Of a DNA stretch of 64,000 bases, positions 6,820 to 35,221 are shown one piece after another. A program made the translations under genes and the position numbers. Within the stretch, counting starts at the first letter, position 1. Every line of letters starts with the position of its first letter. Origin of the DNA: Mactromeris polynyma (Eukaryota > Mollusca > Bivalvia > Venerida > Mactridae); contig JASFXZ010000044.1 of the NCBI GenBank assembly GCA_032209605.1, positions 1,550,001-1,614,000 of the forward strand, written 5' to 3'. The notes under the pieces were generated by a model that saw only the letters and a list, made by a program, of their open reading frames with translations, ran no database searches and had not been told where the DNA came from.

Positions 6820-7100
6820 CAGTACCGCCAGCGTGACAGTTCCGCGTTTTCGTGTCATTTCTCTAACGCAAAACGAAACACGAACGCTTTATCGTTAAAA
6901 ACGGGAAGCGTGAAACCGTTAAGCGTGTAGCCAATGAAAATTCGGCATTTTCGACTCTGTGGAAACGCGAAACCGTGAAAGCGTGTGACCAATCAAATTG
7001 CCGCGTTAACCGTGTGACCAATCAAATTGCCGAATTAAAATTCGTTCGGTTAAGAAATTTGGCGAAATAGAAGAACATGTTCTCCACATGTTCAACTAAA
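6820..7100 (+). promoter_or_regulatory. CpG-rich left subterminal region with repeated CCAAT boxes
   Basis: After the 28-bp terminal repeat this end holds repeated GCGTGAAA and AACGC motifs and three CCAAT boxes in the same orientation (6931, 6989, 7018). The last two lie in a direct repeat, GTGTGACCAATCAAATTGCC. About 200 bp downstream is a small possible first coding exon (7218-7244). The arrangement looks like a promoter, or else a set of transposase-binding subterminal repeats. Confidence 0.4.
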
Positions 7101-7217
7101 TCGACTCCGATGAAAACAATCAAGTACGACATGGAATGGCGATGATTTCATCGGTAGTGACATGTGCATATGTTTGTTCGAAATAGTGGATTTTTGCTAG
7201 ACTCGTGTGGAAGGAAG

Positions 7218-7244
7218 ATGAGTTCAAAGTGGAAAAGGATGCAG
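7218..7244 (+). CDS. Candidate first exon (MSSKWKRMQ)
   Basis: ATG at 7218 in fair context (gaagATGa) is followed by nine codons and then a plausible splice donor, CAG|GTAAAA. The exon ends in phase 0. Exons at 21651-21737 and 22393-22824 both start in phase 0, so they could belong to the same transcript. The link across 14 kb, including a nested hAT, is inference; a nine-codon frame could be chance. Confidence 0.25.
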
Positions 7245-7299
7245 GTAAAACTATTCAAGTGCAGTTCAAATTATTTAACTGATTCAAAATGATGTTGTG

Positions 7300-9065
7300 T
7301 TTATATGTTGCCGGCCACTAAATGACTTGAGTTTAAGAATACTAAGATGTACACTTCACCTCTACAGTACAGTACATATTCATATATCACGGGGCCATGG
7401 CATCTTTCTTTCACGTCACGGATGCCTTCCAAACCACCAAAAAGAACTCCAAAATGCATTTATTTTACAGAACAAATTTGATTACACCCTTCCGAAACGA
7501 AAGTAGCCTGTTTTAAACATTAAATTAAAACGAAAGTAGGAATTTTGTGCGACCGTAATTATAAATTTTTACAAATCGGGCATTATGACCTTATTAAACA
7601 TACTTGTACATCAAACAGTTTTTTCATATGTGTATCAGTTCAGAGATTGACAAAGTCAGTTGTAAATGCATAGAGCAAAATGTATTGCAGAAGAAAGTTT
7701 GGAGTAGATTGAAATTCAGTGTAATAAAAACCACATTCCAATTCCAAAGTAGGGTACACAGGGCTCTAAAAAAAATTCAGTTACGCTTGTTCCAGGCTAG
7801 TGTATATATATGTTAAAGTTTCCGGCATGGGAGGCTAGTTGTTGGAGAACATTTTTCTTGTTTCATTATTGAATATAAGAAAATTGGCAATGTTCAAAAC
7901 CACAGTTATATCATCAAGTGTTTTAACTGGACAGATGCCCTGATGTGTTAGTTACCACACAATAAACAACGACATGAATAATGTAATAACTGATAAGATG
8001 TGTTAATTCCATTTTGGGTAATTTATACAGTATTGAGTCTAGGCCTTTTAAAACAGACCTGTCAAGGGCTAGTGAATTTCTTGAGTCCTGGTCCATTTTT
8101 TCCCAATCTAAAGAAAACATTCCCAATAGAAAACAAATGATTTTGAGCGAAAATAATGAATTTATAAACAAGCAGTAACTCGAGTCAAAATCATTATTGA
8201 CAATTAATTAATCATGTTATAAAATATCTGCTATAAATATCTGCTATATCTTATGAGACAGTAAAACTAGAAAAATGAAGTTGTATTTCATTAATTGCAA
8301 TTAACTGTTAAAAATACTGGATACATTTGTCCTGATTTTGGACAATTAAGTGAGATTAAAATATAATTTTACCAGGGACCTTTTTCCTATTACCCTAGGA
8401 AAAAGCCCTGAATATCTTCGTAAAATACAGTAGCAGTACAAATTGGATGCGTCATGTCTTAGTTTCCCTGGGATATGTGTGTGGAGGCATTGTTGTGTGT
8501 GTGTAGTGTTCCATTTTAACTACTTAAATTTGTTTTATCAAGCTGTACATATATCAGCTTGTTTTATTGATGTGCTAGGTTCAAGAAATTGCATGGTTTG
8601 TATTTAAGTGGCTTTGACCAATCCGGAACATACATTAATCTTCTTTTTGAAATAGGAACCAGCATCGATGAATTTATGGGTTGGTCTTGGTCTCATTACG
8701 TCATCCTCAACTGTAGGATAATAATTTGTTGAAGTTTTCCTTATCAATAACATATATGATTGCATTTACAATCACTATCTAACATAGAGGAGTTGGCCTA
8801 TTACTACTGTTGCAGAATTGGACACCATGTATAAATGCTAATCAGATTGACTGTTTATTAAGGTATATTAATTTGCGATTGGAAAAAGTGAAACTATATT
8901 AATTTCCCTAATAGTAAAGACAGACTTATTTAGTAGATAAAGGCGACCGGCCCAAAATACATGTCAATACAGTACAATGGTTTCAAAATATAATAGTTGT
9001 GTCACATACTGTAGTATATATTATGATAGTAAACAGTGAATAATAATTCAACCAATTCAAGTTAT
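7300..9065. other. No gene seen; short imperfect hairpin at 8373-8410
   Basis: The only structure noted is an imperfect palindrome, CAGGGACCTTTTTCCTA facing TAGGAAAAAGCCCTG. It resembles two fused hAT-type ends, but no 8-bp target duplication flanks it. Confidence 0.35.
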
Positions 9066-9393
9066 TAAATGAACAGGGATGTGATAATCGTACTCGTACT
9101 TGTACTCGTACTTACTCGAGTACCAATTTTCAAGTACTCAGCAGTACTCAGTACTTGTCTGAAATTATGAGTACAAGTACTCATACTTACTCAAGTACTG
9201 AAGCAAAATGGTCAGTACTTAGGAGTACTTTGTGAGTACTATATGAGTACTTCCACACTTATGTGTGAAATGCAAATTAAAGTAACATAATGAAGTAAAA
9301 ATATATATTAAAAGTGAATGGTAAAAATAATTAATTATAACAACACATTGGACAGGCTTATTAAAAGAAATATGTCTACTTCTGTAATGTTGT

Positions 9394-9605
9394 TGTTTCG
9401 TTATGTATATGGTGTAATGTAGAACAACACTTATAATGATTTCTACTACTTTAATTGTACTACCATATAATATGAAAAAGCTACAGGTTTAATAATTATA
9501 CTACTAGTTCATGGAAGCTGTGTGATAGAGTCCTTCTCACAGATTGTATAAAGGTATACATAGTGCTGGTCAGTATAGAAAGTAGACTGGCTACATAACA
9601 CAACA
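9394..9605 (-). repeat. 3' LTR of gypsy element
   Basis: The 212-bp terminal repeat begins TGTTTCG and ends ACACAACA on the plus strand. By eye it is identical to 13967-14178. The 5-bp duplication gttgt precedes it. Confidence 0.95.
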
Positions 9606-9907
9606 TCTCCCTTTTTATAAATGAAACAAAACATACAATGTTTACATTATTAAAATATTCAGTAATCAAATCTGTTTCTAAAATAAACTGTATCATGTAT
9701 TCAACTGTAAATAATTGTCTTTGTTGTATTTTCTTTAAATCAACATCATATCAAAAGAATGGTTTATACGATTTTATTTATTACTAAATATCGTCCAGTC
9801 TATTTAACCCTCATAGGTAGAAATTCAATTCTCACGATATTTTTCTCAATGAATGTTTATTTACATAAACGATGCTGTCGGATGTTAACATTCATGAGTT
9901 AATGAGT

Positions 9908-12900
9908 TCACACTGAGTCAATAATCCTTGGCTTCACTAATCGCCCATATCGTGTTCTATACAATGTCTTATCAGCACTACTATTACCTGGCTGAATTTT
10001 CTCGGACATGGAAGTTGGTGATTGAGGTTCCAAACAGGGATTGCTCTCATTTTCTGACTGTTCAGTTATTTCAATATCCGGTGTTACTGGTGTGCACTCA
10101 TTTGATTTAATTAGGTGGCGCCTATTACGTCTGTATGTAGCACCATCTGAAGTGCGTACAACATAGGAGCGGTCATTTAATTTGTCTATGACCTCAGCTG
10201 GTTTCCAGGTTTTATCCTGTTGTTGGACCCGTGCTGACCCTCCCAGATCAAGTGATTGAAGTGGTTTTGCACTTTTATCATAATACCCTTTCTCCCTTTT
10301 TCTACTGTTTCCTAACTTTGTTTCTACAACCTTAGGTGAAATGTGGCGAGGCATTAAATAGGCCTTTGCTGTTGGAAGAATGGAGCGTAATTGTCTACCC
10401 ATTAATAACTCGGAAGGGGTATATCCTATGTTCAGGGGTGTACATCTGTACTCTAAAAGTCCAATGTACGGATCTTTACCATCTGATTTTGCTTTCTTAA
10501 AAATGCGCTTACATATTTTTACATAAGCTTCTGCATATCCGTTTCCGGAACTATGGTGAGGACTGGATGTAACATGTTGAAAATCCCAATGCTTTGCAAA
10601 CTGTGCAAACTCCTCAGATGCATAACATGTCTGATTATCAGAAACTAACCTCTCAGGTATACCCAGCCTTGAAAATATACCCTTCATGCGGTTTATCACC
10701 GATGAACTTTTCATATTGGATAACTGTTTGACCTCGAAATAGTGACTGTAGTAATCAGCCACTACTATGTATTCCTTGTTACCCCATGTAAACAAATCAC
10801 TGGCAACAATCTGCCATGGGTACTTAGGGATTTCATGAGACTGTAATGGTTCCTTGGGATTAGAGCTTCTGAACTCTAAACAAATAGGACAATCTAGTAC
10901 CATCTGTGTAATATCATTGGAAATTCTTGGCCAAAATATCAGATCACGTGCTCTTCTCAGGGTTTTTTCCACTCCAAAATGAGCAGAGTGTACTACTTTT
11001 AACATGTTTGACCTTAACACCCTGGGAATTACAATTTTCTGACCTTTCATAATCAAGCCATTAACAACAGAGAGTTCATCTCTGTAATTCCAGAAATCAA
11101 TAACCTCAGGTTGGCATTGCTTTCTATAGACTGGCCACCCAGCCATTATTACAGTTATCAAAACTGACAACTGTTCATCTTTTTCTGTTTCTGCACATAT
11201 CTCCTGCAGTTTTCTGTCACTTACAGGCAGGCTAGAAATAACCATATTAACCTGGACATCTATATTATCCGATAACCCTGGGCATGTGTCATTAACTGAC
11301 TTTCTTGACAGGGTATCCGGTACTGGTATTTGCTTTCCAGCACGGAAAGTGACCTGTATGTCATAGCGTTGCATTTGCAACATCATTCTTTGTAAGCGGG
11401 CAGGTGCTAAAAATAGCGGCTTCTTAAAAATAGGAATTAGTGGAAGATGGTCAGTTTCTACTGTAACCTTTCTACCGTAGACCCAATGATTGTAACGCTT
11501 AAGTCCAAACAAAATACCTAGAGTTTCTAACTCTATTTGGGCATAATTCTTCTCACTAGCAGTGAGTGATTTGGAAGCATAGGCTATTGGTCTTCCATCT
11601 TGTAACAAAGTAGCCCCAAGACCTGACCTACTAGCATCTGTTTGCAGAATCAATGGTTTATCTGGGTCATAATAACATAATACCTGACCGGGTTCCTGAG
11701 TGATTAACTCTTTAACCTTACTGAAAGCTTCCGCTTGGGGTTTGCCCCAGTAAAATTCCACTGATTTGCCTAACAATTCTCTCATGGGATTGGTAACCTG
11801 TGCCAGTTTCGGACAGAATCTGGACAAATAATTGACCATCCCAAGAACGGTTTGCAGCTCTGACTTATTTTCTGGAGCAGGCATGTCCTTGATAGCGGAA
11901 ATTTTGGCAGGATCGGCACTTAGCCCATTTCCTGACAACACGTGACCAAAGTATTTGACCTCTGTAAGACCCACTTCTAGTTTGTCTTTATTTAAGCGGA
12001 TGCCCCTTTCAAATGACCTTTGAAGAACTATCCTTAAGTTTCTATCATGTTCCTCTCTGGTTTTGCCATAAACCAGTATGTCATCTACAATAATGACAAC
12101 CCCTGACAACCCTTCAAATGACTCATCCATTTTCCTTTGAAATATGTCCATAGACGATATTAATCCAAAAGGTAACCTGAGATATCTATATCTCCCGAAG
12201 TAAGTATTAAAAGTTGTCAAGAATGATGCTTTTTCGTTAAGCTTAATTGCCCAATAACCGGAAGTTGCATCCAGTTTTGTAAAGTACTTGGCTTCAGTGA
12301 GCTCTGGAAGTACATCATCAATTGTTTTGATAGGGTAGTGTGGACGTTGAACACATTTATTCAAGTCATGCGGATCTAAACAAAGACGTAGGGCTCCGGA
12401 AGTCTTAACGACACAAACCAGACTATTAACCCATTCTGTCGGTTTTTCAACTTTTTTAATGACCCCTAAATCTACCATTCTATCAAGTTCTTTTTTACAC
12501 CTATCTCTAATTGCTACAGGTATCTTACGTGGCGGATGTACTACTGGGACTGCCCCTGGGGAAAGTTGAATAGAGCATTCTCCTGGAATTGACCCTATAC
12601 CCTTGAACACCTCAGGAAATTCCCGTAAAACTGACTCTTTAGTCATACTGCCCGTAGAAATATCTTGCTCAACGGAATAGGTAACCTTTACCAACCCAAA
12701 ATCTAGGCAAGATTGTAACCCAAACAGAGGTGGTGATGTGGTTTCCACCACATGAAACTCAACCTGTTCAGTGCGGGACGATTTGTTATGTATGCAAGGT
12801 AGTTTAATGACCCCTTTCAAATCTAACTGAGTATTGCTATATGCAGACAACTTAGTTTTTGAATTAGTGAGTGCACTTTTCACACCGAGCATACGAAATA

Positions 12901-13891
12901 ACTGAAAAGGCAAAATGTTTACCTGCGATCCCGTATCTATTTTGAATTTAATATTATGTTTCCGTGGTCCTACTTCCATTTCCGTGAAAACCTGGCCACT
13001 GGGATAATCCGTTTTTACACTGTCAATGCATAACTCAGAATCTGAACTGTCTGACTGTATAATTACGTCATTTACATTTTTCGTCTTGCAGACCTTTGCG
13101 TAATGGTTCCACTTCTTGCATTTATTGCATTGTTTCCCTTTCGCAGGACACTGTCCTTTGTTGTGGCTCTGTCCACATCGGTCGCATTTTTCGGCACCGG
13201 ATTCATATGTAGATTGTTTCCATTTTGGTTTATCCTTGTAGTGGGATCCACGTTTTGTCTTGGCAACATGGTTAACTGAACCACTTGCATAATTGAAGTT
13301 TGAACTTGAACTTGGCTGCATGTTTCTTAATTGCTCCTGTGCATACTCATATGACTGGCAAATTTGTATAGCCTTTGTTAATGTCAAATCTTCTCCAATG
13401 GTGAGTAACCTTTCTCTAATTTTCTGAGATTTGATGCCGAACACTATTCTGTCTCGGATCATGTCATCTATATAACTTGCACCGAATGAGCAGTCCTGAG
13501 CGAGTACTTTTAATCTAGTTATATACTGCTCTGCGGTAGTGTCGCCTTGGATTTCATTATTAAATTTAAATCTCGCGAATACCGGATTTGACTTTGGCTG
13601 CACCAGTGTCTGGAATGCATCACATGTAGATTTAACTGACTTTTTCTCTTCGTCTGTAAGTGATAAAGTGTTAAATATCTCCCGTCCTTTATTACCAACC
13701 CATAACAATAGATAGGTAATTTGAACTTCTTCCGTTTTATCCAATAAAGCACCAGCGAAAATAAGTTCTACATGCTGTCTAAATTTTCTGAACGATTCCA
13801 GCACATTGACACTATCCCAGTCCATGACTGGTGTCGGGACACCTGCTAAGTCCATCTTAGAAAAGTTCCGTTTATATTCACTTGGAATCAA
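9908..13891 (-). CDS. Gag-Pol polyprotein of Ty3/gypsy element, 1327 aa
   Basis: A single uninterrupted frame encodes gag and pol together. In order: a capsid-like region (about 1-200), two zinc knuckles (about 236-268, C-X2-C-X4-H-X4-C type), an aspartic protease (DTGSQVNIL, 319-327), reverse transcriptase (LRLPFGLISS near 571; catalytic IVDDILVYG at 601-609), RNase H (QTDASRSGLGA from 750), and integrase with its zinc-binding HHCC region (968-1004) and catalytic D1032, D1085, E1121 (D,35,E). Catalytic residues look present, though the usual DNGPQ-like motif reads DNQTC. Gag and Pol share one frame, so no frameshift is needed. Family assignment is firm; the exact lineage cannot be named. Confidence 0.97.
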   Translation of the reverse strand: MIPSEYKRNFSKMDLAGVPTPVMDWDSVNVLESFRKFRQHVELIFAGALLDKTEEVQITYLLLWVGNKGREIFNTLSLTDEEKKSVKSTCDAFQTLVQPKSNPVFARFKFNNEIQGDTTAEQYITRLKVLAQDCSFGASYIDDMIRDRIVFGIKSQKIRERLLTIGEDLTLTKAIQICQSYEYAQEQLRNMQPSSSSNFNYASGSVNHVAKTKRGSHYKDKPKWKQSTYESGAEKCDRCGQSHNKGQCPAKGKQCNKCKKWNHYAKVCKTKNVNDVIIQSDSSDSELCIDSVKTDYPSGQVFTEMEVGPRKHNIKFKIDTGSQVNILPFQLFRMLGVKSALTNSKTKLSAYSNTQLDLKGVIKLPCIHNKSSRTEQVEFHVVETTSPPLFGLQSCLDFGLVKVTYSVEQDISTGSMTKESVLREFPEVFKGIGSIPGECSIQLSPGAVPVVHPPRKIPVAIRDRCKKELDRMVDLGVIKKVEKPTEWVNSLVCVVKTSGALRLCLDPHDLNKCVQRPHYPIKTIDDVLPELTEAKYFTKLDATSGYWAIKLNEKASFLTTFNTYFGRYRYLRLPFGLISSMDIFQRKMDESFEGLSGVVIIVDDILVYGKTREEHDRNLRIVLQRSFERGIRLNKDKLEVGLTEVKYFGHVLSGNGLSADPAKISAIKDMPAPENKSELQTVLGMVNYLSRFCPKLAQVTNPMRELLGKSVEFYWGKPQAEAFSKVKELITQEPGQVLCYYDPDKPLILQTDASRSGLGATLLQDGRPIAYASKSLTASEKNYAQIELETLGILFGLKRYNHWVYGRKVTVETDHLPLIPIFKKPLFLAPARLQRMMLQMQRYDIQVTFRAGKQIPVPDTLSRKSVNDTCPGLSDNIDVQVNMVISSLPVSDRKLQEICAETEKDEQLSVLITVIMAGWPVYRKQCQPEVIDFWNYRDELSVVNGLIMKGQKIVIPRVLRSNMLKVVHSAHFGVEKTLRRARDLIFWPRISNDITQMVLDCPICLEFRSSNPKEPLQSHEIPKYPWQIVASDLFTWGNKEYIVVADYYSHYFEVKQLSNMKSSSVINRMKGIFSRLGIPERLVSDNQTCYASEEFAQFAKHWDFQHVTSSPHHSSGNGYAEAYVKICKRIFKKAKSDGKDPYIGLLEYRCTPLNIGYTPSELLMGRQLRSILPTAKAYLMPRHISPKVVETKLGNSRKREKGYYDKSAKPLQSLDLGGSARVQQQDKTWKPAEVIDKLNDRSYVVRTSDGATYRRNRRHLIKSNECTPVTPDIEITEQSENESNPCLEPQSPTSMSEKIQPGNSSADKTLYRTRYGRLVKPRIIDSV

Positions 13892-13966
13892 AATTAAGTT
13901 AAATTAATGTTCCTTTCAGTGAAAATATATCAAGAAATTCACACCAGTTTTAAACTTCTGACACCA

Positions 13967-14178
13967 TGTTTCGTTATGTATATGGTGTAATGTAGAACAA
14001 CACTTATAATGATTTCTACTACTTTAATTGTACTACCATATAATATGAAAAAGCTACAGGTTTAATAATTATACTACTAGTTCATGGAAGCTGTGTGATA
14101 GAGTCCTTCTCACAGATTGTATAAAGGTATACATAGTGCTGGTCAGTATAGAAAGTAGACTGGCTACATAACACAACA
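13967..14178 (-). repeat. 5' LTR of gypsy element with adjacent primer-binding site
   Basis: This is the upstream LTR for the minus-strand element. The tRNA-Leu-type primer-binding site is at 13954-13966, directly inside it. It should hold the promoter; no clear TATA box was identified. Confidence 0.95.
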
Positions 14179-14234
14179 GTTGTATTATAATAGTTAATTA
14201 TTTATTAATGCATTATAAATAAATCATGATCAAA

Positions 14235-14372
14235 GTCATACAGGCAACGTCTGCTGCTGTGGAAAGACTTTTTAGTATAGGTGGTAAGGTCTTCAGGCCT
14301 GATAGGTGCAGACTAAAATACGACACATTTGAAAGGCTCATGATGATACTTGCAACAGCCTGCGACTCTTAG
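14235..14372 (+). pseudogene. hAT transposase C-terminal dimerisation remnant
   Basis: The 45-codon frame ends at a natural stop (14370-14372). It contains AAVERLFSIGGKVFRPDRC followed by RLKYDTFERLMMI, the conserved hAT C-terminal dimerisation domain (hATC). No DDE core or BED zinc finger is left. It runs on the plus strand inside the hAT, just right of the gypsy LTR. Confidence 0.88.
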
Positions 14373-14430
14373 ACTATTGACAGTGAGACTAATTGGGGAC
14401 TGTATTCCAAGTTTGGAATAATTATGATTA

Positions 14431-15266
14431 CACTGGAACTCCTTTTAACCGGACATGCTCGGGACTGGACAAAATGTCTGTTTTAAAGGGGTTTCCGGAC
14501 TAAAGGGGTTTTGAGAACTGGACAAGATTGGCAAATTTATTTTCAAACGAGGTCATTTGGATCTATATTTTGTTTTGTAGTGGTAATGATTTGTATCAAA
14601 AATCCATATAACTGTTAAATCTGAATGTGAAAATCTGACTAAAAATACATTAATAAACTCCTATTTATTTCAATATCGAATAAAAAACAATTTCAGTGTT
14701 GCAAATTATCAATTAGTCAAATGATTTACAATAATTGATTGGTTGGAGGTGACCCCCTGAAAGATACTAGTCCATTGTCAAATCTACAGGGGTTATAAAT
14801 TAAACAAAGAACCTGTGAAAACACAGTCAATGTTCCCTTCAATTATCAAGTATCATTAATCAGTTTGTTGTCATAGCAATTAAGACCATGACAGACAGAT
14901 GCTCTAGCCAAACACTAAGTAGGTGTGAAATGTTAAAAACAATATTGACTGCCTTTATTTACTGTATAATTTAACTTACAATTCCAATTGCATTAAAAAA
15001 TCATTTCTTCTGATACTCTCAGTGCTCTGTATCAAACTCTTCCGTCAAAAGTTTTGCGCAAGATGTGAAAATTAATATTGGGTTGAAGGGTCGTGATTTA
15101 TAATGGAAATATCCATTTCGAGCCAAAATTCTTGACTGCTTTCCTGAATTAAGGGGTTTCTGGATTAAAGGGAAATTATATAGTAAAAAAGTTGGGACCG
15201 TATGATTTGTCCTGTTTAAAGGGGTTTCCAGAATTAAAGGGATTCTGGTTTAAAGGGATTCCAGTG
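14431..15266. mobile_element. MITE with TA target duplication, nested in the hAT
   Basis: The inverted ends begin CACTGGAACTCCTTTTAACC (left) and CACTGGAATCCCTTTAAACC (right, reverse complement), flanked by TA (14429-14430 and 15267-15268). The subterminal parts repeat (T)TTAAAGGGGTTTC-like motifs several times. There is no transposase, so it is a non-autonomous Tc1/mariner- or pogo-type element. Confidence 0.85.
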
Positions 15267-15596
15267 TATATTTCTGTGATGAATATATTTCTGGGTTAAT
15301 TTAATTTCTGTCTACTGACGATATGCATTATTAAATATATTCTACATAAATTTGAATAAGTTAACATATCGTGTTTTATTTGCGACCCATTTTAGACAGT
15401 TATTTATTATACAATAATAATTTAAAACATTCTGTACTCAGTACTTACTCGAGTACTTTAAGTAGTACTCAGTACTTACTTAAGTACACACACAAAAGTG
15501 AGTACTCTGTACTTACTCGAGTACTGCCTAAGCATCCAGTACTCCGTACTTACTCTAGTACTATCCCCCAGTACTCGACCCATCCCTGTAAATGAA

Positions 15597-19186: not shown

Positions 19187-19199
19187 CATGGTCATAAAA

Positions 19200-19496
19200 A
19201 TTGGTAGCGGATCAGTGGTCCAGTGGTAAAACGCTGGACTTGTAATCCAGGGATCGCTGGTTCGATTCCCCGCTCCATCACTGACCGTACTAACAGTCTT
19301 TCGGACGAGACTTTAAAAACCGAGGTCCCGTGTATGATGCTTTACATCGAGCACGTAAAAGAACCAGGGGTGCTTCTGGAACTGGGGCATCTTCTGTATC
19401 ATGCACTATCCTCCAAAATCTAATATGACTAACATTCTTCCGGAGGCGTCGCCCATGTGGGAAACCGGTGGCGACGATAAATAAAAGCATATACAA
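19200..19496 (+). repeat. tRNA-derived SINE, second family
   Basis: The tRNA-like head at 19207-19279 folds with a good anticodon stem (CTGGA/TCCAG) and loop CTTGTAA (UGU, Thr). It has A box CAGTGGTAAAACGC and B box GGTTCGATTCC. The body carries TTTCGGACGAGACTTTAAAA, GAGGTCCCGTGTATGATG and GCACGTAAAAGAACC, blocks I know from invertebrate SINEs. The 13-bp duplication catggtcataaaa at 19187-19199 and 19497-19509 bounds it. The core differs from the SINE at 73-351 although both heads are Thr-like. Confidence 0.88.
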
Positions 19497-22392: not shown

Positions 22393-22824
22393 GGCACAAA
22401 TGGACGCACTATCAAAGTTCGTTTTGAGGGTGGGATGGAGAAGACAAAGAGAAGTGCCAAACCATTGAAACCAAACAGAGAACCTGTTTACACTAGGTCA
22501 ATATCAACAGATCAAAGAGACACCTTGTTACAAGAAATAGCATACAGTGAAAGAAACATGGTGTCTGTGGCAACACAGGATATGCCGGTGATAATTCTAA
22601 ACAGTGATGAAGAGATCACAAATGTTGATAGACAGTTTAAATTAAACGAGATACTAAAAATGTGTAAGGAAATAAAAATTGAATTGCCCTCAAAACCATT
22701 GTGTACAGGAAATTCGGATACACCATTACACCAGACACATACCACTCACTGCTACACAAACAGAAAACAGTCCAACACTATTCACTTATACACAAACAGA
22801 AACCAGACACATACCAGTCACTAG
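22393..22824 (+). CDS. Exon of unrecognised gene, running into a minisatellite
   Basis: The acceptor TTTATATTTTAG precedes GGC ACA AAT, in phase 0 with the exon at 21651-21737. The frame runs 143 codons to a TAG. The first 110 residues have normal protein composition and include DMPVIILNSDEEI, which looks like a SUMO-interacting motif (VIIL followed by acidic residues). The last 30 residues are read from the start of a 36-bp minisatellite (CYTNRNQTHTSH), so the original C-terminus was probably replaced. The gene lies inside the 28.4-kb element; host-derived cargo is possible. No function is claimed. Confidence 0.5.
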   Translation, partial: GTNGRTIKVRFEGGMEKTKRSAKPLKPNREPVYTRSISTDQRDTLLQEIAYSERNMVSVATQDMPVIILNSDEEITNVDRQFKLNEILKMCKEIKIELPSKPLCTGNSDTPLHQTHTTHCYTNRKQSNTIHLYTNRNQTHTSH

Positions 22825-23625
22825 CACACACACAGAATCAAGGCACATACCATTCACTAACACACACACAGAATCAAGGCACATACCATTTACTAACACA
22901 CAAACAGAAACCGTCCGACACTATTCACTGCTACACAAACAGAAACCAGACACATACCACTCACTGCTGCACAAACAGAAAACCGTCCGACACTATTCAC
23001 TGCTACACAAACAGAAACCAGACACATACCACTCACTGCTGCACAAACAGAAAACCGTCCGACACTATTCACTGCTACACAAACAGAAACCAGACACATA
23101 CCACTCACTGCTGCACAAACAGAAAACCGTCCGACACTATTCACTGCTACACAAACAGAAACCAGACACATACCACTCACTGCTGCACAAACAGAAACCA
23201 GACACATACCAGTCACTAGCACACAAACAGAAACCAGACACATACCAGTCACTAGCACACAAACACAAACCAGACACATACCATTCACTAACACACAAAC
23301 AGAAACCAGACACATACCACTCACTGCTGCACAAACAGAAAACAGTCCGACACTATTCACTTATACACAAACAGAAACCAGACACAACTCACTGCTACAC
23401 AAACAGAAACCAGACACACACCACTCACTGCTACACAAACAGAAACCAGACACATACCAGTCACTGCTACACAAACAGAATCAAGGTTCATAAATTCAAT
23501 AACTCACAAACAGAAACCAGACACATACCATACACTTATACACAAACTGAAAACATTCTAATGCCGTACACTAATACACAAACAGAAACCAGGCAGATAC
23601 CATACACTAATACACTAACGTAAAA
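22735..23625. repeat. 36-bp minisatellite, partly 72-bp higher order
   Basis: The unit is 36 bp with the common core CACAAACAGAAACCAGACAC. Two variants (one with ACCAGACACATACC, one with ACCGTCCGACACTA) alternate four times to give a 72-bp higher-order unit, then the array becomes irregular. Because 36 is divisible by 3, long frames are open on both strands; this is a consequence of the repeat and not evidence of several proteins. Confidence 0.92.
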
Positions 23626-24618
23626 CATGCACAACCATTCACTACAGGACAAACACATAACATGCAGACTCCATTCTCTATAACACCAACAGTAATCCTA
23701 CAGACTCAACATATTTCAAAACCAACAAAAGATATGCAGACACCATTCAATTCAAAGTCAATAGCAAATACCCATTGCATTGTGAATTTATCCATAGGAC
23801 AACTTTTGTACTGAATTCCTTCTATCATGTATTGCTTTATTGCTGCATATTTAACATACTATGGTGTGCAAATATACCCCACCTATGTTATTTTGTATAT
23901 ATCTATTGGTCAAGCAAATATTGTGCTATATGTTGTTCATTAGTTTGATTCTCTAAATTCAGTAAATCACATATTCATTTAAACAATAACTTTTAGTTAA
24001 TCTATGCATTTGGTAGTCATAATTGGTACTGATTGGTCATGTGAGTGTGATGTCATCAGTATATAGATGTAGTCATCATGTAGATTTCTTACAAGTCTGA
24101 TAGTACATTTTCTTATAGAGGCCCCGAAGGGGATTGTTAGATGTAAATATTGATTTGTTAAATGATTATTTGAGTAAATTACCATTTGCCCTTGACTTAT
24201 ACTGTTATTTTGTATCATGTAAATATTCCTCGAATGTTTTTTGGAAACTTTGTGTGATTTATCATGCATGTTTATTTTACTGTTTGAGGTGTTTGAACCC
24301 CATTTTGAACTCATGTTGGTTCTGTCCGTTGTTCTGTTCAAACACTTGAAACTATTTGAAGTTTGGGTATAAAAGTCCATGTCCATTGTTTGAAAGTCCC
24401 TCTGCAGTACATTTTCTTTAGGTCGGCTACTTCATTATAGATAAAGTTTTACATCAGAAATTATCCATTTGAATTATTATAAATAAATAGTAGCTTGAAG
24501 TAAGTTTAATTCTGTTAAAGTTAGTATTTTATTTATAACGTTTTTTGTGCATACTTAAGTTGATTTTCAGAAACGAAATAAGTTTTCAAATCTAGATTTT
24601 CTGAAATATATTTGGTAA
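23626..24618. other. No gene seen
   Basis: AT-rich sequence with decaying minisatellite-like text at its left end and nothing recognisable after it. Confidence 0.4.
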
Positions 24619-24620
24619 TA

Positions 24621-24809
24621 CAGTCAAACCTGTCTGTAAAGACCACCCATTGGAACAGCAAAATGTGGTCTTTGTTTACAGGTGGTCTCTATTAACAGAT
24701 TAAATATCATTGAAAATGGTCTGATGGAAGATAAAATTGGTGGTCTTTTCCGACAGGTTTTACAATAGTGATCTTTGTTCGAAGGTGGTCTTTAACACAG
24801 GTTTGACTG
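24621..24809. mobile_element. 189-bp MITE with TA target duplication
   Basis: The ends are inverted: CAGTCAAACCTGTCTGTAAA (left) and CAGTCAAACCTGTGTTAAAG (right, reverse complement). Both continue with GACCACC, and TA at 24619-24620 and 24810-24811 flanks them. It is a non-autonomous pogo/Tc1-type element; the interior repeats GTGGTCTTT motifs. Confidence 0.9.
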
Positions 24810-24811
24810 TA

Positions 24812-26040: not shown

Positions 26041-26044
26041 GAAT

Positions 26045-26135
26045 TTACCAGACTTGTCCAGGATTTGCACCTGGGACCTCTCTAGCCAACAATCAAGATG
26101 GCACTGAGCGCTCTAACTACTGAGCTAACAAATTG
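26045..26135 (-). repeat. tRNA-like fragment (SINE relic)
   Basis: The minus strand carries TTAGCTCAGTAGTTAGAGCG (A box) and GGTGCAAATCC (B box) at tRNA-like spacing, but the anticodon arm does not fold. Confidence 0.5.
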
Positions 26136-26840
26136 AACAGTAAATTTCTCCATTGTAACCCCTAGCAATTACAAAAGGAAGACATTTCAAAAAGTAATAG
26201 TTATTTTACTTTGGTTTCCTAGTATGCACAAATACTGATATGAATGTTGCTTAATGCAATTTCTTTGTTAAAGAGTATATGCATTTTTTTAACAGTATTT
26301 AAGTTAGAAAAAGGGATTGGATGACTTGATGCGACTCGAAAAATGTATTTTGGCCTGAATTTCAGTCTAGGTTGTTGCTACAAAAACACATGTACTAACA
26401 TCTGACTTTTTGGCCTTATTCAAAAGAAATGTAAAATATGTTTCCATGACTTACAGGATTTGCAAGCATTATATATTAAAGTTGAGTTTACAAAATATAT
26501 TTCCATGAGGCTAAATTGCATGGTGCCACCATAAAAAACAATGCTTCAAATCATAAGTGACATAATGATTATATCTAGTTAACATTTTTAGATAAGTTGT
26601 GTGCATGTCCATAAAAAACTTATTTTACACACCTTATAAGAAATGACATTCTAACCGTTGAAAGTGCATAAAAATGAACTACCAATAAAATTGACATATT
26701 TTGCAAGAACCACATCTTAGTAGTAAATATATTCCAAATCACTAAACTGTCCATGATGAGCTCAAGGCATTAACAAATAGAAATGGCAGTCTGATGAAAG
26801 GTGTATGAAAAAACCTTAATGATATATATGATCCTGTTAC

Positions 26841-28075
26841 CCATTACCTCCACCTACCATACCATTACCTATACTACACTAACTCATGTTACCCCATTAC
26901 CACCACCTACCATACCATTACCTATACCACACTAACTCATGTTACCCCATTACCACCACCTACCATACCATTACCTATACTACACTAACTCATGTTACCC
27001 CATTACCACCACCTACCATACCATTACCTATACTACACTAACTCCTGTTACCCCATTACCACCACCTACCATACCATTACCTATACCACACTAACTCCTG
27101 TTACCCCATTATCACCACTTACCATACCATTACCTATACCACACTAACTCCTGTTACCCCATTACCACCACCTACCATACCATTACCTATACCACACTAA
27201 CTCCTGTTACCCCATTACCACCACCTACCATACCATTACCTATACCACACTAACTCCTGTTACCCCATTATCACCACCTACCATACCATTACCTATACCA
27301 CACTAACTCCTGTTACCCCATTACCACCACCTACCATACCATTACCTATACCACACTAACTCCTGTTACCCCATTATCACCACTTACCATACCATTACCT
27401 ATACTACACTAACTCCTGTTACCCCATTACCACCACCTACCATACCATTACCTATACCACACTAACTCCTGTTACCCCATTATCACCACTTACCATACCA
27501 TTACCTATACTACACTAACTCCTGTTACCCCATTACCACCACCTACCATACCATTACCTATACCACACTAACTCCTGTTACCCCATTACCACCACCTACC
27601 ATACCATTACCTATACCACACTAACTCCTGTTACCCCATTACCACCACCTACCATACCATTACCTATACTACACTAACTCCTGTTACCCCATTATCACCA
27701 CTTACCATACCATTACCTATACCACACTAACTCCTGTTACCCCATTACAACCACCTACCATACCATTACCTATACTACACTAAAAACTCCTGTTACCCCG
27801 TTATCACCACCTACCATACCATTACCTATACTACACTGACTCCTGTTACCCCATTATCACCACTTACCATACCATTACCTATACCACACTAACTCCTGTT
27901 ACCCCATTACCACCACCTACCATACCATTACCTATACCACACTAAAAACTCCTGTTACCCCGTTATCACCACCTACCATACCATTACCTATACCACACTA
28001 AAAACTCCTGTTACCCCATTATCACCACCTACCATACCATTACCTATACCACACTAACTCTGTTACCCCATTTTC
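26841..28075. repeat. 53-bp minisatellite, about 23 copies
   Basis: The unit is 53 bp and C-rich on this strand, with cores CCTACCATACCATTACCTAT, ACCACACTAACTCCTGTTAC and CCCATTACCACCA. Copies differ at a few positions (CTCATG in the first ones, CTCCTG later; ACCACC/TCACC). A few 3-bp expansions (CTAAAAACTCC) occur near the right end. The left-to-right change of variants shows directional spread of newer units. Confidence 0.95.
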
Positions 28076-29610
28076 TACAACACTTCTCCACAAACTGCAC
28101 ATCACTATTGCAATATATCATATACATGCAATGCCATTTGCCAGGGTAAAGATGGCAGCACCAGTACCTTGGTAAAACACAGCATTGAAATGAAGTCATA
28201 CACAATGTTTGATCCCTTGGTCCATAGTATACCTTACATACATTATTAGATCTGCAGCCTATGTAGTTTCAGTATCCCCATTTTGGATTATGATATTAAA
28301 ATAATTATTACAAATTTACATTCCAATATCATGTTTATTAGTGTAATATCAAATTAAAAGCAGTATAATGATCAATCATTTTTAACATTGCTTTCCATGC
28401 AATGCATAGTCATGAGTTAAATTAACCTGCCAAAATTTTATGGGTGGGTTACAAATTTTTAAACTTACATTAGAAAATAACATAGCATTCTATATAAGAA
28501 TTATCTCAAGGACCAATATATCACACAAGATATAATACTGCTGCTTATAAATATAAACTATCCCATTATTACCAATAGTATTTAAACAGAGGTCATACTT
28601 ATCAATGTAACGCAAATAAAATATAATAATTGTGTAAGATAGATATGTAATGTCTCTTCCCACCGTTTCTGTTATATAATAAAGTCAGTTGTTGGGGTAA
28701 CATATTCACTCATTCTTCACAGCTAATAGTGAACACATGTATTGATAAAACATGTTATCTATATTAAAATGTGACATTTAACTATTTGTACAACTATATT
28801 TAAAAATTTACATTAAAAATATCTTCTTGAAATAATTTGACTATACAACACTTTAACAATGCAGAAACCAACAGAATCACAAGTGTCACAAGATTCATGA
28901 CATCACAACATCAATTGATGATGTCATTAGAATGTGAAAAACTCAAGTTAGAATACCTTTGCATTAATCAAATTCCAGTATTAAATGAAAAAATGTTTTG
29001 CAAAACTATTCTAACTATTAAACTTAAAATAGTTTTGAGCCAAGAAAATAGTTGTCCGAGATAGAATATATTTTTTACATTTGAGTTTTTAAAAACTATT
29101 CACAATATAATCATAATAATTTGACAGATTATGAGTTTTAAGATTTCAAGAACAAAACTGTCAAATAACCACTTACTAAAAAAAAACAAGATAGAATAGT
29201 CTTGCGCTGAGCCCTCGATATAAAGACTAAAGTTTAATGATACCCAGAATTTCAAATGATACCTTGGAAGTTACTAATGTAATAAATTTGGTAAAAACTG
29301 CCATCACACAAATTCTTGCTTTCATTTTCAATAAGTTTCAGTAGCACATCAATTTGATGGTTTTAAATTACCAAATAGCTTTCAGAGAACTGCAATTAAT
29401 TGTGTTATGTAGCTTTGAAAGATAATTCTATCTGTATAACCAAATCCTTTTGTTGACTTAATCACACAGAAATTAGGTGGATGTAACTTCAAATGCCTGG
29501 AAAGTTTTCAGCATTGTTTCATTATTGTTATATGAATGCGACAAGTCACAGTCTGAAGACAACATCTAAGTTTGTACTAGTCAGACTGCAATAAGTAGGA
29601 ATCAAGGGGG
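28076..29610. other. No gene seen
   Basis: AT-rich. A 75-codon frame at 28837-29064 has no family signature and unremarkable composition. Confidence 0.35.
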
Positions 29611-29614
29611 AAAA

Positions 29615-30008
29615 GTGTGTCCGATGTGAGACTCGAACCCATGGCTCCCTAAACACCAGTATGGCACTCTACCGACTGAGCTAACCATGTGACTGTCTAA
29701 CCTCACACCACTACACTCCTCCCCATTCTGGTATTTGTGGCTAAAACCATGTGGGCTGTCAAACACCACTGCCATCATTGAAGTAAGTCAAGGGGAAAGT
29801 GTGCCTGATGTGAGGTCCAAACCCACCACCCCTAAATACTAGTATGTCACTCTAACAACTGAGTTAACCGGACAGCCGTCTGACTCTACACCATATCATG
29901 ATAAATCACACAAGAAAAACAACATATCCCACCAGGGATTGCACCCGGGTCCTCTTATATGATTTAAAGCGGACATAATATTCTACCGCATCACTTCAGA
30001 GCTAGCCA
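29615..30008 (-). repeat. Cluster of three tRNA-like SINE relics
   Basis: Two related units (29615-29690 and 29798-29872) have A boxes like TTAGCTCAGTCGGTAGAGTG and B boxes like GGGTTCGAGTC; the second is decayed. They share flanks (CAAGGGG(G)AAA(A)GTGTG; GCTAACCATG/GTTAACCGGA), so they look like an old tandem duplication. A third, different tRNA-like motif lies at 29927-30008 (TAGCTCTGAAGTGATGCGG). All are on the minus strand. Confidence 0.55.
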
Positions 30009-30009
30009 A

Positions 30010-32050
30010 ACAGAAAAGCTATTGGAAGTGACCTAAGTCACCACATTCACGGACATATGCCGTATAAACTGTAAATGGCATTTTCTTTCCAATCATAATG
30101 CCGATGTCAAGACTGAATTAGCATGAATATTATGGTTCCTCTCAAACATGGGAAGGCCAAATGTACTGGTTTCCGTCTGTGTCATTGTATGTAGAGGCAA
30201 AAAATCGAAGAACGATACTAGAATGACGATACGGAAATAATTTACCGAAAATATATTTAAATTATCCTTGTAATCTACAGTAGTCTGTAACTTACACATC
30301 AAAAGCACTTCTAACTTCATACGTCAAACGCACTGAAAACTTAAATGCCAACAACTAAGCGTGTCTGTTTACATCAACACCGGGTCAAAGCTATCTCCGC
30401 TATATTTTACAATGTCATGCAGAAATACTTCAGTAATCACTCAATATTTATATAAATTAGTTATTTACCGTAACAATTACATGCTAGCACACTTCTGTAT
30501 TGTAATATTTCTGATAAATCTTGTACTGTCAACTGCATTTCACATTTATCCGCCACGTTTGTTGTCACTTCCGGTTAGTACCGGTAAATCTCTATCCGAA
30601 GTCAGATCAAATACTTTTAATGTTTATCGTAGCATACCTGTCTGTAATTACTCAATCATATATTACTAATATGTATTTATGTTGGATTCAGTTTAAGACA
30701 CACATTGTAGCTATTAATGGGGTTGGTTTAGACATTAATCTCTAAACTCTCATTTGCATATCGTGTACTAATTTGCATACCATAACAATGTGCATACCAG
30801 CGTTCATAGTACCAACTCTTGACTTTGCCTCAGTCTCCAGAGTAGTTTAGACGTGTCTGTCTTACGTTTTCATTTTCCTCTGCATCTTGAATAATTTCTA
30901 ATTCAACTTTTATCTTATTATCATCAGGTATAAATTATATTTATAAATTAAAAAAGTTCACTATTGAGAACGGTTATTTGTTTACGTTTTGGGCACAGTG
31001 CATACTTAAATATAATTCGACATTATCGTATTTTTTTTATCTGGCGACTACCGAGACTTAGTTTGTTTCGATATTTTAAGTAGATTCTATTATTACTTAG
31101 ACTTAGTTAATATTTCCTAGTTAAGGCTACAAAATAAATTACATCAAGCCGAAAGGATTTTAGTTGTTTTGATTTATAGTTTGACATTTGTTGGCCGCTA
31201 CCAGGCTGTTTATTACGCTACCTCTACCGGTCCCCCTTAGTGAGATTGGTTATATTTAACTAACTATGGCAATCTTTAAAAATAGATTGCGGATGTAAGC
31301 CCGCAGGTTTACTTTTTGCACACTAGTGATATTCACACACACACACACGGGCATTACAATATTTTAATTATGTTCAGACTAAGATTGAGTTTTGAGACAA
31401 ATTTTATAATGTCCGATGTAGAGGTTTCAAGCAAGAACGGTGATTTTAAAACGATCTGGTTTAAGTTTTTTATAGTAAAACTACATGAACATATGATTAT
31501 GTTGTAAAAAGTGGTCACGTTTGAGGCTCAAACACAATTACATACCATGTCTATACCATACATGCACTTATTCATGTCTGCTACTATACCGACTGCACTT
31601 CATTGACTTATAGAAAGTTTCAATGGTCACGAGTATGGTTGTGAAATTATTAATGCTTAAATGATTATTTATTGGTGTACATATTGTTCAAAAAAGTTTT
31701 TGACTTGAACAGTAACCACCCACATGTCTAGTTCTATAACTTTATAAAATTGTTAGAATATTTTCTGTCAGTTTTCTATTAAATGTGCACACATTATGTG
31801 AATGTGTTACAAATTATCAGTTCAAATTGATAGTTCTACAAATGTATAACTTAGAATCTTAGATGATGTTGTATAAAACTAACAGATAGCCACATTATTA
31901 CTGTTAGACAGGCTTTCTAATTTTTATAAATATTACTACTGAGACTTAACAAATAATAAGGATGAGTAGACATAATGATAATTAAATAAGTTTGTCTAAA
32001 GAGTAAAGTATATTTAGTTATTTAAATAAAGATTAAAATGTAAAAAAGAA
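30010..32050. other. No gene seen
   Basis: Only short frames and a (CA) run at 31336-31350. The 102-codon frame at 30361 has no recognisable domain. Confidence 0.35.
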
Positions 32051-32061
32051 GTGTACACCGA

Positions 32062-32955
32062 GATTTACGGAGGTTTCGGTAAATGACAAGTTCGGTAAAT
32101 TGATTTTAACGTTCATTTCGTTTGGAGGTTTCGGTAAATTGATTTTAACGTTAGTTTATTTCGGAGGTTTCGGTAAAAATATTTTTTGTTAACATTGAAC
32201 AATGACATAGGCTTAATAATAGGATAGTGTGACCAAACAATGTAACTAAGTCAATTACCTACACAAGTCATCTCGTACCCTTTCTTTGGTCAACTCGTAC
32301 ATATCCAAGTCATCTCGTACCCTTTCTTTGGTCAACTCGTACATATCCAAGTCAACTCGTACCCTTTCTTTGGTCAACTCGTACCGATCCAAGTCAACTC
32401 GTACCCTTTCTTTGGTCAACTCGTACCTATCCAAGTCAACTCGTACCCTTTCTTTGGTCAACTCGTACCCTTTCTTTGGTCAACTCGTACCTATCCAAGT
32501 CAACTCGTACCCTTTCTTTGGTCAACTCGTACCTATCCAAGTCAACTCGTACCCTTTCTTCGGTCAACTCGTACCTATCCAAGTCAACTCGTACCCTTTC
32601 TTCGGTCAACTCGTACCTATCCAAGTCAACTCGTACCCGTAATTAATTTTAATTAACACGCTGGTTGCAGTTCAAAGCTAATGACACCTGATAATCCTAT
32701 CTGTGTTCAGCTTTAATTATACAAATACATGTTTGGTTATTTGTTTTATTTTATTTCTAGCATTAACTTTTAATTGAAAATGTGTTAACAACACTATTAT
32801 ATTAATTTACCGAAACATTCAATGTTAACAAAAAATCTTTTTACCAAAACCTCCGAAAGAAACTAACGTTAAAATCAATTTACCGAAACCTCCAAACGAA
32901 ATGAACGTTAAAATCAATTTACCGAACTTGTCATTTACCGAACTTACTAGTATCC
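32062..32955. mobile_element. Foldback element with long inverted arms and internal minisatellite
   Basis: Arms of about 140 bp (32070-32206 and 32807-32945) are inverted copies, each built of GGAGGTTTCGGTAAAT-type repeats spaced by TTGATTTTAACGTT. The same 8 bp, tacaccga, lies outside at 32054-32061 and 32956-32963, a probable target duplication. The loop holds a 42-bp minisatellite. There is no coding sequence, so it is a non-autonomous element; the 8-bp duplication would fit hAT- or other 8-bp-TSD superfamilies. Confidence 0.75.
32262..32640. repeat. 42-bp minisatellite, about nine copies
   Basis: The unit is 42 bp, made of two related halves each containing TCAACTCGTACC (CAAGTCAACTCGTACCCTTT and CTTTGGTCAACTCGTACCTA). 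One unit is shortened near 32455. The first copies read TCATC, and the last ones CTTCGG, so variants are spatially sorted. The open frames on both strands follow from the unit length being a multiple of three. Confidence 0.93.
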
Positions 32956-32964
32956 TACACCGAT

Positions 32965-33290
32965 ATATATGGCAACAATTAGTAGTATTATTTATTTATT
33001 TTAAACATTTATTATAATTTTGCCATTGAATAAATATTACTAATTTACTTTTTAATCATGATAAGGCAGTTATTTTTTCAAATCAGTTATGTTTTTCACA
33101 ACTTTTTACAAATCACATTTGTATTGTTTATTACAGAATTATATCAAAAGTGAAAAGGGTGTTGATTAAATCACAATATTACTGCAAAGTCATTAAACAT
33201 GAAGATAAAGGGTTTTTTAACTATAACTTAACAATTTAATTTGAAAAAACATCAAATAAAAAAGTAAATCACACACAAATAATTATATTA
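32965..33290. other. No gene seen
   Basis: AT-rich spacer to the right of the foldback element. Confidence 0.35.
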
Positions 33291-33292
33291 AA

Positions 33293-33415
33293 AGGTGGGG
33301 GTGAAAAGTCTAGGGTCTATTAAAATTGGGGATGAAACGTCTCGGGAGGAAATGACTACGGGGTGAAATGTCTTGGGGTGGAAACGACTTGGGGGTGAAA
33401 CGTCTGGAATTCTGC
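33293..33415 (+). repeat. Degenerate GGGGTGAAACGTCT repeat
   Basis: Six or so imperfect copies of a 20-25-bp unit, GGGGTGAAA(A/C)GTCT(T/C)GGG, follow one another. It is unlike the surrounding AT-rich sequence in base composition. Confidence 0.6.
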
Positions 33416-33680
33416 AGGGGCGGATCCAAGATTTGGTCTCAAGGGGGCGTTACTTTTTGGTTTTGCTCAAGCCTTATACAACGGCAATGACTGTCACTAA
33501 ACATCATCATGATAGACTATAATACTACAATAAATCAGGCAGAATCACTTATTTAAAAATCTTATCATTAAAGATCTATGTATAATTGCGTATTTATAAT
33601 TGTACTCAGCCATACATGTAAGGTTGGGGAATTCTACAGGGTGTGCGCCGGGCGCCTCCCTTGGATTTGCTAGCAAACTG
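33416..33680. mobile_element. Possible hAT-type MITE remnant
   Basis: The left end CAGGGGCGGATCCAAG and the right end CTCCCTTGGATTTGCTAG are imperfectly inverted, and CAGGGGCGGATCC is a common hAT-type terminus. I see no clear 8-bp duplication, so this is tentative. Confidence 0.35.
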
Positions 33681-34298
33681 CTTGTTAATTACATAAGGAA
33701 ATCCTCATAGATTCCAGGACACAATTACTGTTGACTAAATCACAGATGTGAACAAATACACAAGTTCCAAATGATAACAGTGTATTGTAATACATATTAT
33801 AAATATAAAATGTAAGTTATAACTGTAAAATATCAAGTTGCAGTATAACTGTAACAACGGCTGCATGGAGAAGTGGAATGAGTAAGGCTAGCACATGTAT
33901 GTATGCTTCAAGGTTAATATCCACTGACAACCACACTCATTGTGTAGATTAAGTGTACGTTATGTACATGAACTATCTAACAATTTTGAAATTAGAGCAG
34001 TAATGACATGAATTGAAAGGTATGTTGGCGATTTGTCTATCTTTATGCTCTTTTGCAACACTAACGAAACAACCAAAAACGACAAGTACGAAACGGCAAG
34101 AGTACGAAACGACCTGTATTCGTTACAGCAAATAATGAAATGAAAATACGTCAGTATATACGCAGAGTAACGACATACAGTTCTTAGAGACAGTAAACAT
34201 GTATTTGAACATAACCAGATAAATCATCGTCACAATACATGACCAAGTATTCGTTTTTCTCTCAACCATTCAATGTGAAAAACAACGATTCGTACTCA

Positions 34299-34850
34299 CC
34301 TTGTATAAATGTTTCGGCTTAGGAGCTCTGCACGGCAGGTGTGAGAGAGATGCCTGTCTTTGATAAATTTCCATCAAAAGAAAGTCTTCCAGAGGAATTC
34401 ATTTCAACCGTAGTTTCATCCGTAAATATAAAATCTCTAAAATCCTCACGGACTGCCAACATATGAATAGCCCATTTCTTCCGGAATGATTTCGCCCTGT
34501 TCGCTTTAATTGTTGAGATTGACACATTCACACCAAAATTTTGGTAAATTTTCTTCTGCAGATCAACTGCTGTCAACATTAGCATCTTTAGTCAAGCAAA
34601 AATTAATATACTCCAAGTGAACTGGGTCCAATTTCGTAGATCGAATAGGCCGACGTTTAGACACTTGCATAACACTTCCGACTCTAGATTTAACCCTACA
34701 CAAAATTTTCCTCACACCACGACGAGCAGTAATGGTGAAAGCATGATCATTTTTTAAAATCCCAGAAATTGCTACGGAAGAATAATCCATTTGATCCAAG
34801 ATCAACAACCAGAGCTCGTAAAGGAACAGGCAACATAATTAAGAATCAAT
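34299..34850 (-). pseudogene. Tc1/IS630-type transposase, N-terminal two thirds, broken
   Basis: Several frames together read as a Tc1/mariner-superfamily transposase: a start near 34840 (MLPVPLRAL), a frameshift into SSVAISGILKNDHAF and RRGVRKILCRVKSRVGS, a second shift near 34575, VSISTIKANRAKSF, then the first catalytic Asp in DFIFTDETTVEMNSSGRL. A further shift gives KPKHLYKV (34299-34322), a motif that normally precedes HVWGGIS in this family. All homology stops there; the second Asp and the Glu are absent. A GTGAGT at the break could be a splice donor. The gene lies about 400 bp inside the right end of the 28.4-kb element and is its likely source transposase. Confidence 0.7.
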
Positions 34851-34988
34851 ATCGAAATATAACTAAATATACGCCAATTAATATTTATAGTTCAAACGCT
34901 ATTAGAGCTAGAATGTATACTAGATGAATCAAACGCATCCATGTAAACAAAACCTGACAATTTGAATAGCTTTCTCGGTACGCGTTTA

Positions 34989-35125
34989 CACGGTGCGCAT
35001 GCGCTTTTGAAATTCACGCTTTCACGCTTTCACGGTGCGCATGCGCTTTTGAAATTCACGCTTTCACGCTTTCACGGTGCGCATGCGCAGTCGTGAATTC
35101 TCTTACACGCTGCGCATGCGTAGTG
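34989..35125. promoter_or_regulatory. Subterminal 42-bp repeats with NRF-1-like palindromes
   Basis: A 42-bp unit starts at 34989, 35031 and 35073. Each copy holds TGCGCATGCGC, the palindromic core of the NRF-1 site, with a fourth variant (TGCGCATGCGTA) at about 35110. Between them lie CACGCTTTCACGCTTT blocks. The position, between the right inverted repeat and the transposase start, suits a transposase promoter or transposase-binding array. NRF-1 identity is by motif only. Confidence 0.5.
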
Positions 35126-35221
35126 GAAAATACACGCATACTCGCTTTCACGCTAACACGTTCTCGCGTTAGAAACGAACGCGAAACGCTTTCACGCGGA
35201 ACTGTCACGCTGGCGGTACTG

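Follow-up and report, generated by a model that had tools for sequence, protein, structure and literature searches.

What is a 28.4-kb element with ends of the Tc1/mariner type, lying inside a mariner transposase gene of the bivalve Mactromeris polynyma, and how did it get there? Tc1/mariner elements, the best known of the small cut-and-paste transposons, underlie tools for gene transfer, and the Tc1-like ones usually measure a few kb. The element lies in a stretch of 64,000 nucleotides (positions 1,550,001 to 1,614,000 of contig JASFXZ010000044.1, assembly GCA_032209605.1), hereafter called the window. The present analysis revealed that a unit measuring about 20.6 kb has recently multiplied in this genome, with inverted ends of 28 bp, TA duplications and flanks that differ from copy to copy. 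We regard it as a probable giant non-autonomous family of DNA transposons, of Tc1/mariner type and mobilised in trans. The window copy and its target are arranged as follows:

6820..35221, unstranded: giant element, window copy (28,402 bp)
6820..6847, plus strand: 28-bp terminal inverted repeat, 'T' end
35194..35221, minus strand: 28-bp terminal inverted repeat, 'G' end
5957..6819, minus strand: mariner (target), 3' half of the transposase gene, with its outer 35-bp inverted end at 5957-5991 and TA as its final two bases
35222..35708, minus strand: mariner (target), 5' half, starting with the second TA and with its outer inverted end at 35674-35708

The initial annotation had described perfect 28-bp inverted ends flanked by TA and an exact interruption of the mariner, and both descriptions hold. 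The inverted ends are perfect over 28 bp inside the element (31 bp including flank that matches by chance) and the TA dinucleotides lie at 6818-6819 and 35222-35223. The 20-mer of the end matches twice in the window, with no further match at up to three mismatches (mean of 0.00 in 100 shuffles). Removal of 6820-35223 leaves a mariner of 1348 bp, whose own 35-bp inverted ends are 94% identical, and reading across the rejoined site gives VHQIASIVGIS; since its reading frame holds stops, this target is a decayed copy. A 27-mer spanning the join has 36 exact matches in the genome and six with one or two mismatches, compared to none for the reversed control. Because the uninterrupted join thus occurs elsewhere, the element interrupts the mariner exactly and the empty site does exist as a sequence, and these matches argue against a misassembly at either end of the element.

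The 793-Mb assembly was then searched with the 20-base element end, which has 80 exact matches; 56 of them pair up with a neighbour in convergent orientation, giving 28 pairs that are all longer than 20 kb (27 span 20.6-41.0 kb and one spans 82 kb). Random placement yields a mean of 0.095 convergent pairs below 50 kb (at most 2 in 1000 placements) versus 27 observed. The lower half of the pair lengths, in bp, comprises 20557, 20599, 20731, 20841, 20950, 20982, 21193, 24067, 24565, 25202, 26394, 26399, 26635 and 26678, and the upper half 27207, 28361, 28402 (the window copy), 28700, 28767, 29496, 29873, 30476, 31376, 32540, 33442, 34519, 40963 and 81909; seven pairs fall within 20.6-21.2 kb. 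When up to three mismatches are allowed, the number of end matches rises to 107, versus 10 for the reversed control, and a 21.3-kb pair on C146 is added. TA precedes 29 of the 30 single ends examined. The T end is present with at least 94% identity in at least 40 places, 38 of them with the tip, among the best 40 of 93 candidates. The 81909-bp pair may have other elements inside; about 1 kb inside its G end (L029, on C112), a frame of 181 amino acids (aa), gag-like by eye, probably belongs to a nested retroelement.

A further six complete copies (L031-L048), all from among the seven shortest, were read and named A to F, B being the reference. Together with the window copy, they have one common skeleton of about 20.6 kb, and all seven carry TA on both sides within seven different flanks. 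Substitutions relative to copy B, over 17.5-19.6 kb, amount to 1.8% in A, 1.7% in C, 1.6% in D, 1.7% in E, 1.1% in F and 1.6% in the window copy, figures that are inflated by a 36-bp minisatellite in which the alignment is unreliable. An assembly artefact or a segmental duplication, instead of transposition, could account for one pair of G ends, at C35:2257113 and C35:2484520 (L007/L008), which have an identical 14 bases of flank and one of which probably arose by ordinary regional duplication. However, the empty site, present exactly 36 times in other mariners, and the different flanks of the seven complete copies refute this explanation for the family, and we give it practically no weight.

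The common skeleton also decides on the case of a small miniature inverted-repeat transposable element (MITE), which the initial annotation had itself set against a giant element, or of a Tc1 element, enlarged separately in each copy by nested insertions. Such insertions did occur in the window copy and in the 26.4-kb copy on C286, of which 20 kb were read and in which about 5.6 kb and 0.6 kb are added to the skeleton at two different places. However, the 20.6-kb interior is common to seven copies and no short convergent pair of ends was found among the 100 places listed out of 107 (up to three mismatches). Enlargement of a small element is therefore refuted for the core and valid only for the size differences between copies; as an account of the whole family it is highly improbable. 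What was proposed initially, a giant element whose ends and TA target are of the Tc1/mariner type, is thus supported; its length of 28.4 kb stands for the window copy but not for the transposing unit, which measures about 20.6-20.7 kb. The window copy is longer because a hAT element with a Gypsy-like element inside it, a fold-back element and a piece resembling a short interspersed nuclear element (SINE) were inserted later:

9074..15588, unstranded: hAT insertion, ends CAGGGATG..., 8-bp duplication TAAATGAA (9066-9073 / 15589-15596)
14238-14348, plus strand: hAT dimerisation fragment (Pfam Dimer_Tnp_hAT, 2.5e-4, 21.2 bits, just under the 21.4-bit cut-off)
9394..14178, minus strand: Gypsy-like long terminal repeat (LTR) retrotransposon inside the hAT, 212-bp LTRs 100% identical, 5-bp duplication GTTGT
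32062..32955, unstranded: fold-back insertion, 125-bp inverted arms, 8-bp duplication TACACCGA
19199..19480, plus strand: SINE-like insertion, approximate boundaries, tRNA-like head at 19209-19277 (Rfam tRNA, 34.6 bits)

The hAT, fold-back and SINE-like insertions are each absent from the six other copies read. The Gypsy-like element, assigned to its family by eye and without a profile run, has an open frame of 1331 aa. These nested insertions represent about 7.7 kb of the 28.4 kb, which leaves about 20.7 kb by arithmetic. In the window, the mariner came first, followed by the giant element, then the hAT and finally the Gypsy.

The family's ends begin with CAGT(A) (CAGTACCGCC...; the end sequence is also given as CAGTACCGCCAGCGTG). 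The T and G ends are identical for 28 bp only and then diverge, the G end carrying an exon. Both hold GCGTGAAAGCG-like repeats, and CGTGAAAGCG, with one mismatch allowed, occurs six times in the G end and twice in the T end (300 bp each) but not in the middle. In the window copy, the subterminal repeats are:

6848..7038, unstranded: T-end subterminal repeats, 29-bp units, CGTGAAAGCG-like motifs
34980..35193, unstranded: G-end subterminal repeats, 42-bp units, CGTGAAAGCG and GCGCATGCGC motifs

One G end and one T end were found in all 15 pairs read at both ends (the seven complete copies and eight others). Since the ends differ past 28 bp, the suggestion of a composite, with two whole elements flanking other DNA, has to be abandoned.

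The exon of the G end connects the family with Tc1-like transposases. Its limits in the window copy were calculated with the help of the translated frames and of copy B, in which the splice donor was read as DNA:

34300..34836, minus strand: exon 1 of a Tc1-like transposase, frameshifted in the window copy (frames 34838-34566, helix-turn-helix region, and 34591-34322, IFTDETTVEM)

This exon encodes a helix-turn-helix and the first catalytic D and finishes with a splice donor. In copy B, its frame starts about 390 bp inside the G end, encodes 174 aa including IFTDETTVEM and ends at the consensus splice donor ACAAG/GTGAGT. In L009 it encodes 181 aa and retains the LGWSCKQTGYCQMI stretch lost in copy B, without reaching the donor in one frame; AVDLQKKIYQNFGVNVSISTI and DFRDFIFTDETTVEM are common motifs. 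A spliced gene had initially been attributed to the element: exon 1 of a Tc1-like transposase is indeed present, but it is the only exon found and is broken in the window copy. In the 21.2-kb copy at C201:548341-569533, exon 1 (C201:568938-569150) lies within an open frame of 1737 aa.

A diverged relative that is found twice on C243 (L049 and L060, which share 95-96% identity along the greater part of their length) indicates what may have been lost. Both are 76-77% identical to copy B over exon 1, and the intron aligns in pieces. Past the intron they read KVFVWGGVFYRGRTN / KVYVCGGVFYRGRTN, and their next exon begins after ...TTTTAAG with GTATTTGTATGGGGTGG (KVFVWGGV...RGRTN). Further on, L060 reads TPAQSPDINPFDNVW, and the best Pfam match of this stretch is DDE_3 (0.052, at profile positions 110-141 of 146, the end of the profile). 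The relative has retained the following exon together with a motif of the catalytic core. The match of copy B ends inside the intron, at about position 1416, and the next exon of the relative lies about 60 bases later; from this end point within the intron we infer the loss of everything past a break in intron 1. As a possible ancestral form we considered L009, which departs from the skeleton near core position 1425; only 35 bp past this break were read. A complete partner was also sought at C57:5329296, C146:9649761, C13:12702456, C113:10352382 and on C243, all of which turned out to hold truncated or rearranged relatives.

The interiors differ in relatives that have similar ends (L050, L052-L054). 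From C57:5329296 onward (L052/L055), a 79%-similar T end is followed by a gene of several exons that looks FN3-like by eye. The 24 kb read there contain no second end (up to five mismatches), and this is probably a truncated copy. In L050 (C296, 674-2431), the exon 1 of the relative stops at the splice-donor position and joins an exon of an OB-fold gene without an intron; when joined, the two exons match Pfam SHLD2_OB1 (8.6e-9), and this junction could be a capture at the exon edge. On a tentative reading that we consider doubtful, the lineage could take up host DNA, gene exons among it, time and again close to the intron break; alternatively, L050 and L052-L054 may be truncated copies.

The remaining core, about 19 kb in length, is rich in AT and contains two minisatellites as well as an unusual open frame:

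22393..23643, plus strand: core open frame running into the 36-bp minisatellite, possibly a captured exon
26832..28072, unstranded: 53-bp minisatellite of the core, varying between copies

Tested for selection, the 22393 frame shows seven nonsynonymous and three synonymous changes (ratio 0.61), and some copies have indels that are not triplets. Six-frame Pfam scanning of the window copy, from which three minisatellites, the Gypsy-like element and the last 319 bases of the minus strand were left out, revealed no other genes, the hAT fragment being the only match better than 0.04. Weak matches to DUF7006 (0.13), IgD1_Trs65 (0.071), MCP1_SIFV (0.25), Dicer_N (0.046) and ForC_N (0.11), and to SVA (0.13) on the 22393 frame, were judged to be due to chance. 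A 2.3-kb piece of the interior has at least 44 matches in at least 38 places of the genome among the best 40 of 2189 candidates; each listed match lies no more than about 36 kb from a known end, and no host donor locus was found among them.

The size of about 20 kb and the inverted ends could also suit a viral or Polinton-like element integrating by means of a DDE enzyme. Polintons/Mavericks generate a 6-bp duplication and carry PolB, a retroviral-like integrase and capsid genes. Here, the duplication is TA, the six-frame scan of the window copy outside the Gypsy-like element and the minisatellites detected no polymerase, capsid, protease or integrase family, and three other copies contain few frames above 130 aa. 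A viral origin is accordingly very unlikely.

We favour trans mobilisation of a Tc1-like derivative, and the following scenario can be proposed. An ancestral Tc1-like element with an intron would have lost everything downstream of the intron 1 break, and the lost part would have been replaced by about 19 kb of other DNA. The transposase of another, intact element would recognise the ends and the subterminal repeats, cut the 20-kb unit and paste it into TA; later insertions would enlarge single copies to 41 kb or more. Such cut-and-paste at TA by a Tc1-type transposase from another element is, to judge from the sequences, the most likely route, and it is supported by the TA duplication, the ends and the exon.

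Several observations weigh against this interpretation. Regarding the ends, (i) 24 of the 80 exact ends have no exact partner, (ii) the remaining one of the 30 single ends is preceded by TC, and (iii) the last two bases of the T end at C245:6641772 are lacking from its alignment, which may mean that its TA is missing. Some unpaired ends have a seemingly worn partner: C57:9797670 (exon 1 at 9773843), C45:71013 (exon 1 at 96397-96855) and C35:2006247 (a tipless T end at 1979681). Regarding the exon, its Pfam matches in three copies are mutually consistent but all under the curated cut-offs: HTH_Tnp_Tc3_2 (0.0022), HTH_32 (0.0042) and HTH_33 (0.0089) for L020, HTH_33 (0.011) for L009, and HTH_33 (0.013) and HTH_Tnp_Tc3_2 (0.015) for L045. 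Exon 1 of copy B and of L050 matched no Pfam family, and comparison of exon 1 with the PDB sequences gave three, one and no matches, none related (best E of 0.49). An exon-1 fragment compared with a set of 5.8 billion proteins, assumed to be poor in animal proteins, gave 85 candidates, none with E <= 0.001. The broken exon of the window copy, with HTH_33 at 0.17, fits the transposase reading. No intact transposase with the family's ends was found, and the trans-acting source is therefore assumed. Finally, a 20-kb family devoid of short derivatives is surprising if transposition drops with cargo size; according to a review of giant transposons (PMC6431247), DNA transposition falls above about 6 kb of cargo.

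The missing transposase leads to a further alternative, in which the giant is autonomous and some copies splice exon 1 to distant, perhaps unrecognised exons inside the 20 kb. The consensus splice donor is retained in copies B and L017, and in five copies exon 1 stays open along the entire 174-aa query, with 98-100% identity in four of these. Nevertheless, the catalytic half of the transposase was not found within the family, either in the pieces searched or in the six-frame scan of the window copy. DNDPKH and SPDLNP patterns were unmatched in these pieces (short end pieces L039, L042, L045 and L048 excluded), and the 16 loose matches of the HVWGGIS pattern (up to two substitutions) in copies of the family were taken as chance because none continues as a transposase. 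Moreover, six copies compared with B show 14 nonsynonymous and four synonymous changes in exon 1 (ratio 1.06), with non-triplet indels in five of the six, and thus no sign of purifying selection; this test is weak, with only 18 changes, and its weakness also counts against the interpretation that we prefer. Overall, an autonomous giant appears unlikely, trans mobilisation remaining our preferred explanation.

The family's 28 end-to-end pairs, none of them below 20 kb, its low divergence and its exact empty sites offer a natural test of this length limit on cut-and-paste transposition and point to a transposase tolerant of long cargo. A more far-reaching proposal, which we put forward only tentatively and consider doubtful, is that this Tc1/mariner lineage has been freed of the limit: the length of 20 kb would itself be what is copied, short derivatives not having been seen, because the acting transposase tolerates or even favours long DNA, possibly by way of the arrays of subterminal repeats.

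Other features of the window were noted outside the element. Tandem blocks of about 5.2 kb with open reading frames (ORFs) occupy 40356-55077 (44274-48862 and 49478-54041 being 97% identical), and the ORF at 46598-47287 in these blocks matches Pfam OGFr_N (6e-14). A direct tandem duplication of 762 bp, 99.9% identical, lies at 3087-4607, and an open frame at 585-974 resembles, by eye, a fragment of a pogo-type DDE transposase.

Inverted ends of Tc1 and pogo start with CAGT, as do those of the present family. Like Tc1-like elements, the family has a TA target and its duplication (29 of 30 ends, both sides of seven of seven copies, and the empty sites), a probable helix-turn-helix of HTH_Tnp_Tc3_2 type and the IFTDE motif, with SPDINP in a relative. 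It differs from them in its length of about 20.6 kb, in that no catalytic domain was found and in the intron of its gene, located between the K and the V of KV(F/H)VWGG. EnSpm/CACTA elements have CACTA tips and mostly a 3-bp duplication, whereas the tips here are CAGTA and the duplication is the 2-bp TA. In the open-licence literature (titles and abstract openings), no giant Tc1/mariner family was found, and the word mariner is absent from the giant-transposon review (PMC6431247). Pack-MULEs and large derivatives of retrotransposons, as presented in that review, resemble the family in carrying other DNA between ends that are recognised in trans, but Pack-MULEs do not exceed 7 kb. Teratorn, a piggyBac element combined with a herpesvirus, is likewise a giant animal element with a cut-and-paste type of transposase; it belongs to another superfamily, and no virus genes were found here. 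A further parallel comes from the giant KDZ, EnSpm and Sola-1 families of Ectocarpus (PMC12477816). These belong to other superfamilies, and Mariner-Tc1 elements of 4.4 kb and 217 bp are given there. However, the Ectocarpus giants, like the family described here, exceed 10 kb and contain nested insertions, and their transposase is often pseudogenised or, in several families, absent; their authors inferred mobilisation in trans.

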